From positions 868,001 to 932,000 of the forward strand of contig CM073203.1 in assembly GCA_037042915.1 (NCBI GenBank): a stretch of DNA of 64,000 nucleotides, written 5' to 3'. Source of the DNA: Auricularia sp. M13. Lineage: Eukaryota; Basidiomycota; Agaricomycetes; Auriculariales; Auriculariaceae. Shown here piece by piece: positions 35,879-43,803 of this stretch. A program made the translations under genes and the position numbers. How positions within the stretch are numbered: position 1 is the stretch's first letter; each line of letters starts with the position of its first letter. Below the pieces are notes generated by a model. The model saw only the letters and a program-made list of their open reading frames with translations. It did not search any database and had not been told where the DNA came from.

Positions 35879-36639
35879 TCAATTGACCCTCGGGAGCGAG
35901 GAAGGCGGTACGGCCGCAGCGGCAGTGGTCAGCGCCTTAGCTGCATCCTCGCCCGTTATTTGCTTTCCCAGTAACCATCCAGCACCTTTTATCAGGTCCT
36001 GGTGCGCCTTTGTCGCGCTCTGGAGCCCCGGGATCATGTACAGGTGACGGTGGGGAACTCCAGGATAGACGTCGAGACGCGTCTTGACGCCGTGGTCGCG
36101 TAACGCGCGCTCATAAACGAGCGCGTCGTCGCGCAATGGATCCTGGCCCGCCACCTGGATGTACGTCGGCGGCTTACTCACGTGCGGCCTCTCTGCGGCG
36201 AACGGAGAGAACAGCGGCGACGCGATGTCGATCTGGGCCTGGCGATGCACGAAGTCCATCGCCTTGCGGTCGACGCTGAGCGCGTCGGCGTTCTGCTCGC
36301 GGCTGAAGTACAGCGGCCTGTATTTCTCCGGCACGAGCGCGGGCTCCAGGAGGTACGGCACGACGAGCAGAAGGCCTGTCAACGGTACCTCCTTGTGCGC
36401 GGCGCTGTTGACGTAGCGCTGTGCCGAGGCCGCCGCGAGGTTCCCAGCCTTGCGGGCCCGAGTTGAGAAGCTTTCGGTGGTGATAAGCAACGCATTGAAA
36501 TTTTCATAGTCTGGATGCCATACCTCCGTCACCTCTGGACTGTGTCGTTCGTCAGCTACGTATTGAATTTCCATAAGAGGCCAACTCACTCGGTCTCAGC
36601 GAGTTTCGCGACTTCTTCGTAGGTATCGTAATTCGGCAT
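35879..36639 (-). pseudogene. HSL-type hydrolase copy B, internally deleted
   Basis: Exon 1 (36590-36639, MPNYDTYEEVAKLAETE) and the 16-nt exon 2 are kept, but what follows is ~70 nt of unrelated sequence joined to the middle of the hydrolase domain. The HGGG oxyanion motif is gone and the nucleophile region reads TRARKAGNLAAASAQ where copy A has GGISAGANLAAVAAQ, so Ser is lost. The C-terminal half (AGQDPLRDD, PGVPHRHLYM) is intact in frame to a stop at 35879. The protein cannot be an esterase. Confidence 0.85.
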
Positions 36640-37025
36640 GATTATTCGCAGGCTGGAACTCTCTGCACGCAGCCTCTTATCTCGACACCATTCGTAGCGC
36701 TGATTCAGCATATCCCGCAAGCAACACTGGCAGAACTTTCAAACATGGGCAGAGGTGCCAATCGCGCGCGCTGTCAATGCCAATGGGTGGTTGTCCTGTC
36801 ATGTCTCAGCTTACATATTCAGCATCTATCCCATCTTCCAGCACGACGGATAAGGTCCGGCATACTGTTCCTGTGCTAATAAATCATCGTATTTGTGCCT
36901 AAGCATCACGCCGTGGGATTCAAAGGTTTAAATTCGTGGAAAATCGGACATCGTTCCGTACAGCAAGCGTTGAAGCACGAGAAAAAATCTGAGGATGTTC
37001 TGTCATACATTAGGTACTCGGTATA
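36640..37025. other. Spacer between hydrolase pseudogene and transposon
   Basis: No gene seen. The left TA of the transposon target site is at 37024-37025. Confidence 0.6.
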
Positions 37026-37049
37026 CTGTACCTTTTCGACCGGTTGTTC
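37026..37049 (+). repeat. Left terminal inverted repeat of the transposon
   Basis: Starts CTGTACCTTTTCGACC next to TA at 37024. It pairs with 42244-42267. Confidence 0.88.
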
Positions 37050-37081
37050 GTGGACACATGTGTACTATTGTTAGTGATGGC

Positions 37082-37816
37082 GTGCAGAGTAGGGTGCTGT
37101 TGAAAACTGTTTGTTAATAACAATGTTATTAACAAAGTGTTATTAACACGTTAATAACATGGGGCCCCGGTAGGGCCTTGTTAAAAACAAATCTGACAGC
37201 TATGTTCATAACGATAGACCCCACGGCCGATTTCTGCGGTTTGACGCGGCGAGGTGGTGCCTACCATACGAGGTATCCTAAGCGAGCAGCCAGCCAATCC
37301 GGTGGCGAGTTGGCTCGCTTACGGCGTCCGGATCAGCTGTTCCGACGTAGTTCACTTTTTTCGGACGGGGTCTACTGTATCGTTATGAACATAGCTGGAA
37401 CACATCAAATTGCTGAGCCCCTGGCACATTCGGGGACAGATATATAACCTCACATGAACCTGAGTGTTTCAACATGTGCTCAAGGTCCTGTTTTGTAATC
37501 TCAGAAGGTATGAAGATCAAGGCTAAGGCTCTCAGATACGAGTGTGTGATGACTAATCAGACCTCTCAGGCTTGGCCAAGGCTCCCCAAACCATTTACAC
37601 GAGGTGTGGACACCACTAGAGCTTGTGGCATCTCTTTCATGCAGTACTACTCAACAGGAACACTTAAAAAGGGTCAGTAATTGGCTCCCAGAGCTTCATT
37701 AGTTATATTATGTAAGTTTGTTATTAACAGTGTTTTTAACACTGTGTTAATAACAGGTTTTGTTTAAAACATGTTAAAAACTCGCGGGGAGTTTTTAACA
37801 GCACCCTAGTGCAGAG
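37082..37816. mobile_element. Nested hAT-like non-autonomous element (719 bp) with 8-bp target duplication
   Basis: The element is 37090-37808, flanked by GTGCAGAG at 37082-37089 and 37809-37816. Ends are TAGGGTGCTGTTGAAAAC and the reverse complement of TAGGGTGCTGTTAAAAAC. Both subterminal regions carry many TTATTAACA/TTAATAACA repeats, as in hAT elements. There is no transposase frame inside. An 8-bp duplication and short TIR beginning TAGGG fit the hAT superfamily. Confidence 0.85.
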
Positions 37817-38027
37817 TCGTTCATCGACTGCCGTTAGGCGTTACGATGTTCAAGTTGTTCATCATCGGCAAATTCCGGATCCGCGGCGATCCCTTGTGCG
37901 CCGCACGCGTGGTGCGCTTTTCCAAATCCAACTCGTGGTTCACCTCTGGCTCATGGCCCCACCACGTTGAAGCACACCATGGAACATTTTCAAGCACCGC
38001 TCGAGTTGCATCTTTTCCCCATCCACC

Positions 38028-41000
38028 ATGCAGAGCTCCTCGGTCGGAGAGCCTATCGACACCGACACTTTAGCTGATGTCGACAACAGCTTGCAGCGTC
38101 ATTGGAACACCATCCCCCTCGACTTCCAGTCTCTTATCCCGCCAGTTTCACTCCCAATTTATGCTTTGCTCCACAACATGACTCTGCCACCAGTCCTGAC
38201 CAAGGAACCATCAACGACGCCGCAAATACTCTTCTCTGAGTCCGCTGCTGTCGAGCTATCACAAGAATGGCTGCTATCCATCCCTATCCCACCTATGGGT
38301 TACATCAGGACCCTCGCCAACATGGTCCTCGCTGCCAAGACTTGCCCACCATCAATCCGTCACCCACAGCTCAATATCTGCCTACCAACATGGGTCCCGA
38401 GCTGGTGGCTGCTCATCCATGATGCGAGTGCTGCCCAACAGCTTTGGACCGCCTCCGAGTCATGGTTTACTACAGTTCTCAGACGCAACCCACCGAATGA
38501 CGACGAGTTGCAGGACTTGGTTCAGCGGGCTCAAACTTCCCTCAGGTCAATTCCTTGGGGAGAGAATGTCACCGTGGATCGTGCTAGCATTGTGGCATTC
38601 GAAGCCGGCCACTTGCTCGCAGACGGTCTGCTGGGGAACGATGTCCTTGACTGCCTCTTCAATCTCCTTTCCCGACGTCTTGCCGCACTCAACACATCGG
38701 ATATCCTGATCCTACATACGACCATGTCCCAGTATTTGATGAAGCTTTCGGCAAGCGCGGAGCAGCAGAGATATCCTACAGTGCATGGTTATCACGCACT
38801 GCGTCAGATCGGGCAGAAGTTCGTTGCACGACATACAGCAGTGGTGTTGATCCCATATTTTCTTCCACACGCGAAGCACTGGGCAGTGCTGCGAATCGAA
38901 CATGGACGCGATGACCTGGTTTCCATCTCATATGGCGATTCTAGCCAGCTGAGAATGCCTGCCGCGGTCAAAGACGCCATCACCGCATGGATCGAACTTC
39001 TTGGTCTACGTTTGGAGGGTGTATTCAACGACTTACCACATGGGATACAGGACGACACATTCTCCTGTGGTATTGCGGCTTTGAACACTGTTGAAGTTGT
39101 AGCATTTGGTGCGCCAAAGTTCTCCCATAACAAGCGCGATATCTTTCGAGTTGCAAAATACCTCGAGCTCGTGGAATGGATTTTCAACCTGGTACGAGCG
39201 TCATGATTTGCTTCACCAAACAGCTTCTTACCGCAGTCCCAGGACTGTATGTCGCAGCTTCCACTGTCATTATGGGGCGACATCGTTCTTGAAGCCTCCG
39301 ATGAAGCACATCAGGACCCATCGCCTGTCGCAGCCACTGTGACCACAGCAAAACCAGTGCCACCTGCTCCGTTGAGACGGCAACAGCCTGTGCGTCCACT
39401 AACGCAGTCTACACTCACATTCAAGAAGCTCTCTGCGGAAGAGAAGGCAGAAAAGCGGCAGGCAGCGAGCGAATCAGCCCTGGCTCGCAAGGAAGAGATT
39501 GCGCTCGAAAGGGAGGCCCGCGAAGTGCGAAATGAGCAGGCTCGTGCACAGCGTCGGGCAGAAGAGCAGGAACTCGGGCGCATGCGTGCAGCACGATTTC
39601 GCCAACGTCAGGTTGCAAAGGGTATTGCAAATGGGACGCGAACCGAGGATGGTAAAGCTATCGTATGTCACTCTTGTCTACTGAATTGCCCGGACCAAAC
39701 CTGACCAGCTGGCAGAGGAAACCGCGAAAGCCAAAGCGTGCGGCCACCTGTGACACCGAGACGCCCGAGCCGCTAGCCAGCAGTCGCACACCGTCGACCA
39801 CCGAACCACGCATCTCAGATGTTCTGCCAACGCCCGCAGCGCCCGTCACACCATTCCAACCAATGCACGTTCTTTCACGTAACATTGCGGAGGACAGTCG
39901 GCCGTTCAGGGCGGCCAAGATCGTCTACAAGGGCAAGACAAAGCCACAGGGCCGTAAGCGCAAGCACGAGCAGCGGCCGGCGAAGTACATACACTGGAAA
40001 AACCCCATGATCTGGCGGCAGATCGAAATGGCCGCTAGCCGCGCAGGCTTTGCGATGCGGCCTGCCGACATTGTGCGCGAGGCCCGGAAGCTCGACCCAG
40101 CACTCTTTTCGCAGCTGAAGGAGCAGACGGTCGGCCGGTGGATCGAGCGTCCCAAGTTTGGCCAGCCACACTGGAAGCCGAAGGTGCTCGGGCAGGTAGA
40201 ACGTGGTAATAGATCGGGCGGCCAGTCTACACGCGTTGGTGTTCTGGTAAGCCAGGCACAGTCTTCATGAAAGCAAGAACTCACATCGTTGCAGTCTTCC
40301 CATCCCGATGCGGTCCAGGTCATCAAGCGTCGCTTGCATGACCTCCGTGCCAGTGGAACTGCTTTGACGATGTCAACCATCCGTGGCATAATCCAAGGCA
40401 TATTGACGCACCTTGCCCCGGAAGTCTTCGAGACCGTGTCGAAGTCAGGGCACAAGTTCACATGCTCCGACGCGTTTGTCTATGATCTTGTACACTCGCT
40501 GGGCTTCTCCCCTCGGCGCCCGACCCGAGCGGCGCAGAAGATGCCTGCGGATGCTGATGAACAAGGGTGGAAGATGCGCATGCGTGGTCTATACCTTTCG
40601 AACAAGCATTTCATCCCGGGGGCGCTGTGGGTCAACCAGGACCAAACACAGATGCGCTATGCGTTTGGTGCTGATTGCACTTGGTCGGAGACTGGCGCGA
40701 AGCAGGTCAGCGTTCTGGGCCAGGAAGAGAAGCGAGCATTCACCTTGAATGTCGGCATCTCGCTCAGCGGCGAGCTCCTACCCTTCCAGGCGATATTCTC
40801 TGGCAAAACAGACAGGTCGCTGCCCCGAAACGTTGCTCCGGGATACGAACGCTGCCAGGAGCTCGGCTTTCTTTTCCAACCAGCCAAGACGGATACGTAC
40901 TGGTCGACACAGGAGACGATGCGCGACTATGTTGATAAGATCCTGGCGCCGTACTTTGAACGCCAGCGTGTCGCATTAAACCTCCCTCCACATCAGCGCG

Positions 41001-41906
41001 CGATCTGGATGCTCGACTGCTGGTCAGTGCATCGGTCACAGCCATTCCGGGCGTGGATGAAGGCAAATCACCCACGCATTTTCATGCTGTTCGTCCCCGC
41101 GGGCTGCACGTCAATCTACCAGCCGTGCGACGTTGGCATGCAGCGAGTGTTGAAGCACGCCATGAAGCGCGCTTGTCACCTGGACGTTGTTAAGGAAACA
41201 ACAGAGGCCCTGGAACGAGGTGTCGCACCTGAAGCTGTCACGGCGGACACAACGCTGGGGACCCTTCGCGATCGCTCGGTCAACTGGATGCTGAAGGCGT
41301 GGGATGTCTGCAACGACAAGGAACTCATAAAAAAGGTGCGCTAGTGCTTGCCATATGATATAAATACTCACAGGCATCCAGGCCTGGGAGCGCACGGTTG
41401 TGCGAGGCAAAGGCTTCACCGCAGAGGACCTGACAAACCGATCGTCAATAGAAGAAATGCTCAATATCGAGACGACGCACCCTGAATTCTGGGCTGAGCT
41501 GACAGGCTCCACCGCGGCTGACGATGCTGAAGGTGCAGGCGAGCCCGATCCAACGGATGACGACGAGGACGGAGACGATACCGCAGTGCCTTCTGCGGAG
41601 ATTGCTGCACAGGTCATGGGCGAGAGCGTTAACGACGATTATTGGCGCGTTGAAGATGACGGTACCTTGCAGCCAAACACGGTTATGGAGTGCATCGACT
41701 CCGAAGCACTGGCCGATGAAGAGGATGACGGCGATATTGATATGGAGGACGCGCCGAGCGACGGCGGCGACGGTGATGCAACCGACTCTGATTTCGAGCC
41801 GTCAGCCTCGGGTAGCAAAGCTAACAGCAACCCAGTGCGCCGCACCTCGTCCAGGCTTGTCCACCGCAAGGGCTGGTACAAAGACTTCCACCGCTGGGCA
41901 CTGTAA
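38028..41906 (+). CDS. Ulp1 protease - DDD transposase fusion protein
   Basis: Five exons, all introns phase 0: 38028-39191, 39258-39662, 39716-40246, 40295-41335 and 41382-41906, total 1221 aa. Residues ~210-385 are a Ulp1/C48 cysteine protease domain with an intact set His284 (HAKHWAV), Asp304 (SYGDS), Gln341 and Cys347 (TFSCG). A charged coiled coil follows (EEKAEKRQAASESALARKEE), then a basic, DNA-binding-like region with two helix-turn-helix-like parts, and a DDE_1/pogo-type catalytic domain with Asp816 (WVNQDQT), Asp941 (MLDCWSVHRS) and Asp979 (YQPCDVGMQ), 37 residues between the last two. The tail is acidic. The protease may remove SUMO or ubiquitin-like tags, or mature the transposase; that is inference. 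Confidence 0.88.
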
Positions 41907-42243
41907 AGCCCGGCATTCCTTGTTATCTATCCAATTATCTGTATCATGCAATGGACTGTACATACCTCTATGAGCTGATGAATTGGCACAATCCGGGCTG
42001 CCCTTGAGGTAGGCAACTGGTGTGCGCAAATGCAGCAGTGGATGGGGCCTAGGAGAGCCGCGATAAGGGCAAGGGTGGGCGGAGCGGAACAGCGACGGAA
42101 GCGGAGTTGATAAGATCGCCCGGTGTCATCTTATCGCCGCGAAGCGGCCCGAAAAATCAGTAACGCACGAAGTTCAGACCCTCGCGTTATGCGTTATAAA
42201 AATGTATTTGTTCGGTTCATTGGCCAGCGTTATGCGTTACGCT

Positions 42244-42267
42244 GAACAATAGGTCGAAAAGGTACAG
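42244..42267 (-). repeat. Right terminal inverted repeat of the transposon
   Basis: Ends GGTCGAAAAGGTACAG followed by TA at 42268. Inner neighbour is AGCGTTATGCGTTACGC, part of the subterminal repeats. Confidence 0.88.
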
Positions 42268-42269
42268 TA

Positions 42270-42613: not shown

Positions 42614-43803
42614 TTAGTTAACACTGGGCGCCGTTCGAGGCGGTATGGACGCCGCAGCTGTCGTCACAGCCTTGGCCGCGTCCTCGTCTCCCACTTCCTT
42701 GCCCAACAACCACGCAGCGCCTTTGACGAGGTCGATGTGAGCCTTCTGCGACTGCTTCAGCATCGGAAACATATACGCATGGCCGTGCGGCACGCCGGGG
42801 TAGACGTCCAACCGGGTCTTGACGCCGTGGTCGCGCAGCACCCGCTCGTACACCAGGCCGTCGTCGCGCAGCGGGTCCTGGCCGGCGACTTGGATGTACA
42901 CGGGTGGCATGCCGACGTGCGGCTGCGGCGCGTTGAATGGCGAGAACAGCGGTGACTTGTGGTCGAACTTGACGGTTCGCTCGACGAAGTCCATCGCCTT
43001 CTTGTCGATGATGAGCGCCTGGGCGTTCTGCTCGCGGCTGAAGAACACGTCCTTGTACTTCTCGGGCACAAGCTCGGGCTCGAGCACATAGGGCACGATG
43101 AGCAGCACGCCCGTGAGCCGCTTGCCCTCCGGCTCGGCGACGAAGCGCTGTGCCGCCGCGGCCGTCAGGCACGCACCGGCGCTGAGCCCGCCGACAACTA
43201 GGCCCGCGCCGATATCTGCGCCGAGAGTTGCAGCGTTCTCCGGCTGCGCGAGCCACGTCAGCGCGTCCCACACATCCTCCTGCGCCGCGGGGAACGGGTG
43301 CGCGGGCGCGAGGCGGTAGCTCGGCGCGACGACGACTGCGCCAGTAGCCTCTGCGATCGACTTGCCCGCCAGCGCGACGTGCGTTGGGTCGCCCAGTACG
43401 AATCCGCCGCCGTGCACTAGGATCACCAGAGGGTGTGGCCCGGCGGTGGGTCGCGATGACCGATACACGCGCGCCCAGGCGAGCCGTCCGTCGCGCATCG
43501 GGATATCCAGAGGCTCATCTGTGGCAGTTGTTGGCGGGCTCGGGCGCGGTAGCTTTGCGTATATCGCAGCGCTCTCTTCCAGGCTGCCGCCTGCCCCAGT
43601 CGTGGCTGCTTTCTGGCCAGCTTTGAGAAACTGAACGTACAGGATGCTTGGTCATGTGTAATTGGCCCCTTTATTAACAGATTGCGTACCTCTGCCAACT
43701 CTGGGCTGCAACTGCGTTAGCTGCCCTTGCCCACGAACGCGTTTTGGACTCACTCTGTGTCGCTCAGCTTGGCAATGGCCTCCCGCGTTTCGTAGGCGGA
43801 CAT
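42614..43803 (-). CDS. HSL-type alpha/beta hydrolase, copy C
   Basis: Three exons: 43754-43803, 43690-43705 (16 nt) and 42614-43630, total 360 aa. Same structure as copy A. HGGGFVLGDP, nucleophile GGLSAGACL, AGQDPLRDD and GVPHGHAYM are all present, so it should be active. All introns are GT-AG. It is closest to copy B in its C-terminal half (VYIQVAGQDP, RDHGVKTRLDVYPG), which places B and C as sisters split by the transposon insertion. Substrate unknown. Confidence 0.9.

Follow-up and report, generated by a model that had tools for sequence, protein, structure and literature searches.

A predicted transposon of Auricularia with a C48/Ulp1-like protease domain fused N-terminal to a DDE_1 transposase

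The element and its predicted protein

The window analysed here is a stretch of 64,000 nucleotides from the basidiomycete Auricularia sp. M13 (NCBI GenBank assembly GCA_037042915.1, contig CM073203.1; C11:868001-932000 in our numbering), whose genome comprises 52.1 Mb in 14 contigs. At 37024..42269 on the forward strand lies a complete transposon of 5,246 bp, one TA per end included, with a single predicted gene that joins a C48/Ulp1-like protease domain to a DDE_1 transposase domain. The left terminal inverted repeat (TIR) core, CTGTACCTTTTCGACC, occupies 37026..37041 on the forward strand and is preceded by TA; the right core, its perfect inverted copy, occupies 42252..42267 on the reverse strand and is followed by TA. 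The element is thus bounded by TACTGTACCTTTTCGACC and the exact inverted copy of this sequence, that is, by TA plus a 16-bp TIR core, which bears out the complete element described in an earlier note made from the letters of the window alone. TIRs and TA are found at both ends in all six elements inspected. A second copy on contig C10 (C10:772789-777306) is free of the insertion nested in the window copy and measures 4,518 bp.

The gene (38028-41906, forward strand) is predicted to encode 1,228 amino acids in five exons, which are separated by phase-0 introns with GT-AG borders (45, 53, 48 and 46 nt), in agreement with the five-exon gene and single protein of the earlier note. Its product begins with the C48/Ulp1-like domain, followed by a charged linker, a region with a weak helix-turn-helix match and the DDE_1 catalytic domain. 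Exon 1 (38028..39191) encodes the N-terminal region and the protease-like domain (about residues 200-388), including the catalytic positions His284 (38877..38879, HW motif) and Asp304 (38937..38939, DS motif), the oxyanion-hole position Gln341 (39048..39050) and the nucleophile position Cys347 (39066..39068, SCG motif). The basic, charged linker of exon 2 (39237..39662) is found in relatives without a C48 domain too. Exon 3 (39716..40246) encodes a conserved region that is helix-turn-helix-like by eye and has no Pfam match; it contains a Gly-Gly pair (residues 698-699, 40217..40222) common to all five C48-bearing lineages. Exon 4 (40295..41335) opens with a below-cut-off match to HTH_33 and continues with the DDE_1 catalytic domain, in which Asp823 (40640..40642), Asp948 (41015..41017) and Asp986 (41129..41131) are the first, second and third catalytic Asp, and exon 5 (41382..41906) supplies an acidic C-terminal tail and the stop codon. 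Asp948 and Asp986 are separated by 37 residues; both this DD37D spacing and the numbering H284, D304, Q341 and C347, as first given in the earlier note, are exact in the gene model.

Taken jointly with the mechanism proposed below, it is in our view fairly probable that the element belongs to the IS630/Tc1/mariner-pogo supergroup as a cut-and-paste DNA transposon of autonomous type, with a C48 protease fused N-terminal to a DD37D transposase.

The window copy also carries a nested insertion of ~0.72 kb, overlooked in the earlier note, which starts at 37090/37091, past the left TIR and upstream of the start codon. It spans 37090..37808 (strand unset; 718-719 bp), is flanked by an 8-9-bp target duplication, gtgcagag(t), and is missing from the C10 copy. 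The ends of this repeat are TAGGGTGCTGTT-like, and we take it to be hAT-like. A 201-bp repeat at ~37197-37397 lies within it, giving a two-level nest, and both repeats have many copies in the genome. Outside the transposon, its own insertion site is flanked by two frames that are similar to each other by eye (35879-36595 and 42614-43651, both on the reverse strand) and that, from a motif, are presumably hydrolase-like.

Protease and transposase in diverged relatives

When the window protein is aligned, with splicing, to its relatives, the order protease, linker, transposase is recovered at the loci L034, L036, L037 and L038, each of which has paired and related TIRs. These relatives are diverged: their catalytic exons are 44-60% identical to that of the window (46% in L037, 44% in L038), and identity to the window's protease domain is 25-35% for L034, L036 and L038 (21-37% in another version of the alignment). 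In L034, a stop-free frame of 741 amino acids spans protease and linker up to the catalytic exon. The claim that a C48 domain and a DD37D transposase share one polypeptide is therefore borne out by the gene model, by four diverged lineages and by the L034 frame. L034 also has a near-identical sibling, L035, whose N-terminal part (L042) lies ~29 kb away. At this site (C4:3746870-3789766), the TIRs stand 42.9 kb apart when exact TIR matches only are counted, and the protease exon is split by ~29 kb that include a match to the KDZ transposase.

The protease is more diverged, and its assignment draws on the family as a whole. Run against the solved structures of the PDB, a profile of the C48 domains of the window, L034, L036 and L038 (A3) lists XopD at E 7.7e-7 and yeast ULP1 at E 8.5e-5, both of which are SUMO-type proteases. 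A narrower profile, built from the window, L034 and L036, detects L037 and L038 together with four other C48 domains of the genome, each with an E value of 1.1e-6 or lower; the best shuffled control listed has 2.2 bits. These four other loci themselves exceed the Pfam C48 cut-off (32-37 bits), and the L038 domain reaches 36.3 bits against PF02902. The His-Asp-Gln-Cys set stands in the right order and context in the window protein; its four residues are invariant in all four aligned C48 sequences and are seen, across a frameshift, in the fifth lineage, L037.

The transposase part is recognised more directly. The exon-4 frame scores 38.9 bits against Pfam DDE_1 (cut-off 22) and has a DDxD triad, and DDE_1 is matched by all six aligned family members, the window included. 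NCBIfam transpos_IS630 gives a weak match (24.1 bits, E 2.2e-5) that is far under its cut-off of 100. Five DNA-binding domains of pogo transposases (CENP-B_N, HTH_ABP1_N, HTH_Tnp_Tc5, BrkDBD and HTH_psq) have no match to E 1 in the window exon frames 1-5, nor are they found in the six aligned exon-4 proteins searched to E 1 or in the six aligned exon-3-region proteins searched to E 10. The description of the element as pogo-type in the earlier note thus stands as far as the DDE_1 catalytic domain and the weak IS630 match go, but is not matched by a pogo DNA-binding domain, and HTH_Tnp_Tc5, which the note had named for a profile search, is among those without a match. The DNA-binding helices that the note placed before the catalytic domain come down to the HTH_33 match at the start of exon 4, which is below cut-off (E 0.0019) and seen in the window only (one of the six aligned proteins), and to exon 3, judged by eye and without a Pfam match. 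Against the PDB, the transposase profile returned only microcephalin (E 0.4-0.47), and of 34 stretches in viral contigs that fit the transposase pattern none was confirmed as a relative.

At three other loci (L039, L040 and L041), linker and transposase are kept and the N-terminal region is different. No C48 domain was found in that region, and a search for their TIRs gave no convincing pair. A nine-row transposase tree, midpoint-rooted and with long branches flagged by the program, splits these three from the C48-bearing rows with full support. Because the split coincides with the lack of C48 in L039-L041, the protease belongs to one branch of the transposase family.

The two closest copies permit an estimate of selection. 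Over 4,461 bases, the C10 copy is 99.3% identical to the window copy (29 mismatches, one gap), and its flanks are unrelated to those of the window copy; the element has therefore moved in the past. Of the changes between the two coding regions, 22 are synonymous and 5 nonsynonymous (~875 and ~2,806 sites, pN/pS ~0.07), so that both halves have been under purifying selection. By exon, synonymous and nonsynonymous changes number 7 and 2 in exon 1 (pN/pS ~0.09), 1 and 0 in exon 2, 6 and 3 in exon 3, and 8 and 0 in exons 4 and 5 together. A one-sided binomial test, which assumes equal mutation rates across sites, gives p = 4e-10 over all exons, p = 0.001 in exon 1 alone and p = 8e-6 in exons 4 and 5 taken together. 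Between L034 and L035 there are 4 synonymous and 2 nonsynonymous changes in the catalytic exon, 5 and 1 in the last exon, and none in the 513 shared bases of the protease.

Several results weigh against reading the element as a functional protease-transposase fusion that acts on SUMO. The window exon-1 frame scores 16.8 bits against Pfam Peptidase_C48 (PF02902), and 20.1 bits as a trimmed domain, where the cut-off is 20.7; of the profile matches foreseen in the earlier note, that to DDE_1 is thus above cut-off but that of the window to C48 just below it. A match to Pfam C48 at E 1 or better is seen in two of the four aligned C48 sequences but not in the other two. Dropping L038 from the profile keeps XopD at 9.1e-5 and removes ULP1 from the list. 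Single-sequence structure prediction gives a mean pLDDT of 39 for exon 4 and of 35 for exon 1, too low to confirm the putative protease fold. L037 has a frameshift between the protease His and Asp, and the first spliced models required frameshifts in L034 (one), L037 (two) and L038 (one). Once introns are kept short and frameshifts penalised more heavily, a frameshift persists in L037 alone, although some of the introns so proposed are doubtful and the L034 model then starts only at residue 64. A joined-flank search for the empty site of the window and C10 copies returned none, only their own flanks and, as one exception, a stretch of 83 bases that is 77% identical to a portion of the left flank of C10; since no empty site was found, the TA duplication is putative. 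The suggestion that the copy may be active is weakened: the frames of the window copy are open, but it has the ~0.7-kb 5' insertion, and the C10 copy has lost one base in exon 2, which puts its transposase out of frame with the protease. On sequence alone, neither of the two can be taken as intact. In favour of the reading, the genome has, besides a C48 match taken as the host's own Ulp1, 20 matches to the ubiquitin-like profile PF11976, some in tandem like polyubiquitin; this profile does not separate SUMO from ubiquitin, and SUMO itself was not identified. The C48 assignment of the window domain is nevertheless retained because other members of the family carry it, through the L038 score and the A3 profile matches.

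The TIR family and other C48 loci of the genome

Matches to the TIR pattern with at most one mismatch number 56 on the forward and 54 on the reverse strand of the genome, as compared with 20 and 6 for a reversed control pattern. The 77 exact matches form 32 inward-facing pairs: 25 shorter than 1 kb (125-449 bp), five of 4.3-5.2 kb and two longer. Size classes are seen around 154, 164, 383 and 449 bp, and 16 of the 25 short pairs are 154 or 164 bp long. The short pairs are probably non-autonomous derivatives of the same TIR family, and the spread of sizes is the picture expected of transposase-encoding elements together with such derivatives. The transposases of the C48-DDE_1 family would mobilise these short TIR-only elements.

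C48 domains are not confined to this family. Across the whole genome there are 47 Pfam C48 matches at 37 loci, the strongest of which (74.8 bits) is taken as the host's own Ulp1. At least 20 of the 37 loci lie 2.0-2.5 kb on the 3' side of a KDZ transposase match and share its strand (for example, C10:3313604-3316832), in a neighbour comparison that covered 69 of the 154 KDZ and 32 of the 38 DDE_1 matches. Of the 37 C48 loci, L038 alone stands beside one of these 32 DDE_1 matches, because the other proteases of the family are missing from the Pfam-based list. Inside the element itself there is no KDZ match among the matches listed. In a third group, C48 lies 5' of a large, unnamed, multi-copy protein (L056, 214-4552, reverse strand; L057, 3177-5786, forward strand). 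The 684-amino-acid frame of the C9 member of this group (L056) matches no Pfam model above cut-off and nothing in NCBIfam; relatives of this frame occur at seven loci, six of them with a listed C48 match nearby.

Among 13 C48 stretches scored, the closest to the DDE_1-linked proteases are four of the third group (20-67 bits). Stretches from other loci score at most 10.8 bits with the C48-DDE_1 family profiles, in part because introns break the stretches up. The KDZ-linked proteases are not favoured as the source of the protease, given that the one unfragmented KDZ-linked C48 domain among them scores ~1 bit. A ten-row C48 tree has no starred branches. On these scores, the DDE_1 and the unnamed types are the ones whose protease domains are more alike.

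The copy number and architecture of the KDZ-linked and third-group C48 families suggest that they too are transposons. Ulp1-type proteases could, as a tentative proposal, be a shared accessory of fungal DNA transposons, present here on three unrelated element types (DDE_1, KDZ and unnamed), as though transposon families had acquired from one another a module for de-SUMOylation that works against silencing.

Possible role of the protease and comparison with known elements

The retention of both active sites in diverged relatives suggests that the element uses its protease to aid its own movement or to escape silencing. The transposase part would bind the TIRs and so carry the protease to the element, where it would strip SUMO or a related ubiquitin-like modifier from its substrates. 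These may be the transposase itself, or proteins that act in silencing or repair at the donor site or the target site, and removal of the modifier would favour transposition.

Other roles have to be weighed against this mechanism. The protease may instead act on ubiquitin or NEDD8, for example to shield the transposase from degradation, and the C48 profile does have weak matches to the deubiquitinases ChlaDub2 and OtDUB (E 0.16-0.26); XopD and yeast ULP1 are better matches of the same profile, and we regard this alternative as unlikely. We judge it a little harder still to defend that the protease matures its own protein, being freed from the catalytic part by cleavage at the Gly-Gly of residues 698-699. 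C48 enzymes cut after Gly-Gly, and in the spliced models a Gly-Gly is present at the homologous place in all five C48-bearing lineages and in none of the three relatives without C48. Its conservation is, however, unremarkable because other positions in the region are conserved as well; cutting at this point would split the putative DNA-binding region in two, and no ubiquitin-like domain was noticed before it (exon 3 being without a Pfam match).

It is improbable, too, that protease and transposase are separate products, with a retained intron 1 ending the protease four codons past the exon-1 splice site and the transposase starting from a downstream ATG. Such an arrangement would accord with the in-frame stop within intron 1 of the window copy and with the C10 copy, which is frameshifted just past the protease yet has open transposase exons. 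Nevertheless, a 45-nt intron is the sole gap between the protease and transposase domains, the L034 frame passes through this region without a stop, and the Met that follows the protease in the window is at a different place in L034. That the C48 part is a captured, passive passenger without a role is very hard to believe and already disfavoured: captured gene fragments are frequent in transposons (PMC13317346) and the L037 protease is frameshifted, but the catalytic residues are kept in all five lineages despite protease identities to the window of 21-37%, and the pN/pS of exon 1 between the window and C10 copies is ~0.09.

The closest known counterpart of the proposed fusion is Ginger1 (PMC2836005), in which, as here, a DDE transposase and an Ulp1 (or OTU) protease are part of one polypeptide. 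The Ginger1 transposase is, however, Gypsy-integrase-like and the protease, whose Ulp1 form is listed from Hydra, is C-terminal, whereas the present element has its protease at the N-terminus of a DDE_1 transposase and thus lacks the C-terminal arrangement that marks Ginger1. The likeness to pogo elements (PMC7386202) lies in the DDE_1 domain, the DDxD triad, TIRs of up to 40 bp and TA ends, and copies without nested DNA have a length within the 1.2-5.2 kb of pogo. Pogo transposases are described in the same text as 300-977 amino acids long with five types of N-terminal domain, whereas the protein described here has 1,228 amino acids, none of these domains and a C48 domain. The Mover family of pogo is likewise without a detectable DNA-binding domain (PMC7386202). 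The term 'protease' was not found on searching this pogo survey and a Tc1/mariner phylogeny (PMC7325037).

Ulp1-type domains are also carried by other classes of mobile elements. A conserved Ulp1 of unknown precise function is described for Kaonashi/KIU VANDAL and other plant Mutator-like elements (PMC13317346). In VANDAL elements it resides in a VANC-type gene, within Mutator-like elements, and VANC proteins counter silencing; here it is on an IS630/Tc1/pogo-type transposase. CryptonF and CryptonS of oomycetes resemble the present element in carrying an Ulp1-like C48 peptidase, but Cryptons are tyrosine-recombinase elements, and the peptidase of CryptonS is an additional protein (PMC3212892). 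An Ulp1-like cysteine protease is reported for Polintons as well (PMC10175614). The KDZ elements of the Auricularia genome differ from the present element in having C48 on the 3' side and a transposase of a different superfamily.

A search of the open-licence literature by title and start of abstract, with curated repeat libraries outside its scope, pointed, among the papers listed, to no transposase of the DDE_1, pogo or Tc1/mariner kind that is fused to a C48 domain, and a term search found no mention of Ulp1 in four papers on fungal transposons (PMC12730594, PMC12810828, PMC10799480 and PMC9674265). Ulp1-transposase fusions as such are known from Ginger1; within the open-licence literature searched, an N-terminal C48 domain on a DDE_1 transposase appears to be a new variant.

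Proteases of the Ulp1 type turn up repeatedly in the transposons of plants, animals and oomycetes. The element described here would place such a protease in IS630/Tc1/mariner-pogo, among the best-studied cut-and-paste groups. Since the protease is part of the same protein as the transposase, is conserved and has been under selection, its role is directly testable. If this is also why other fungal elements carry such proteases, silencing based on SUMO may commonly stand in their way.

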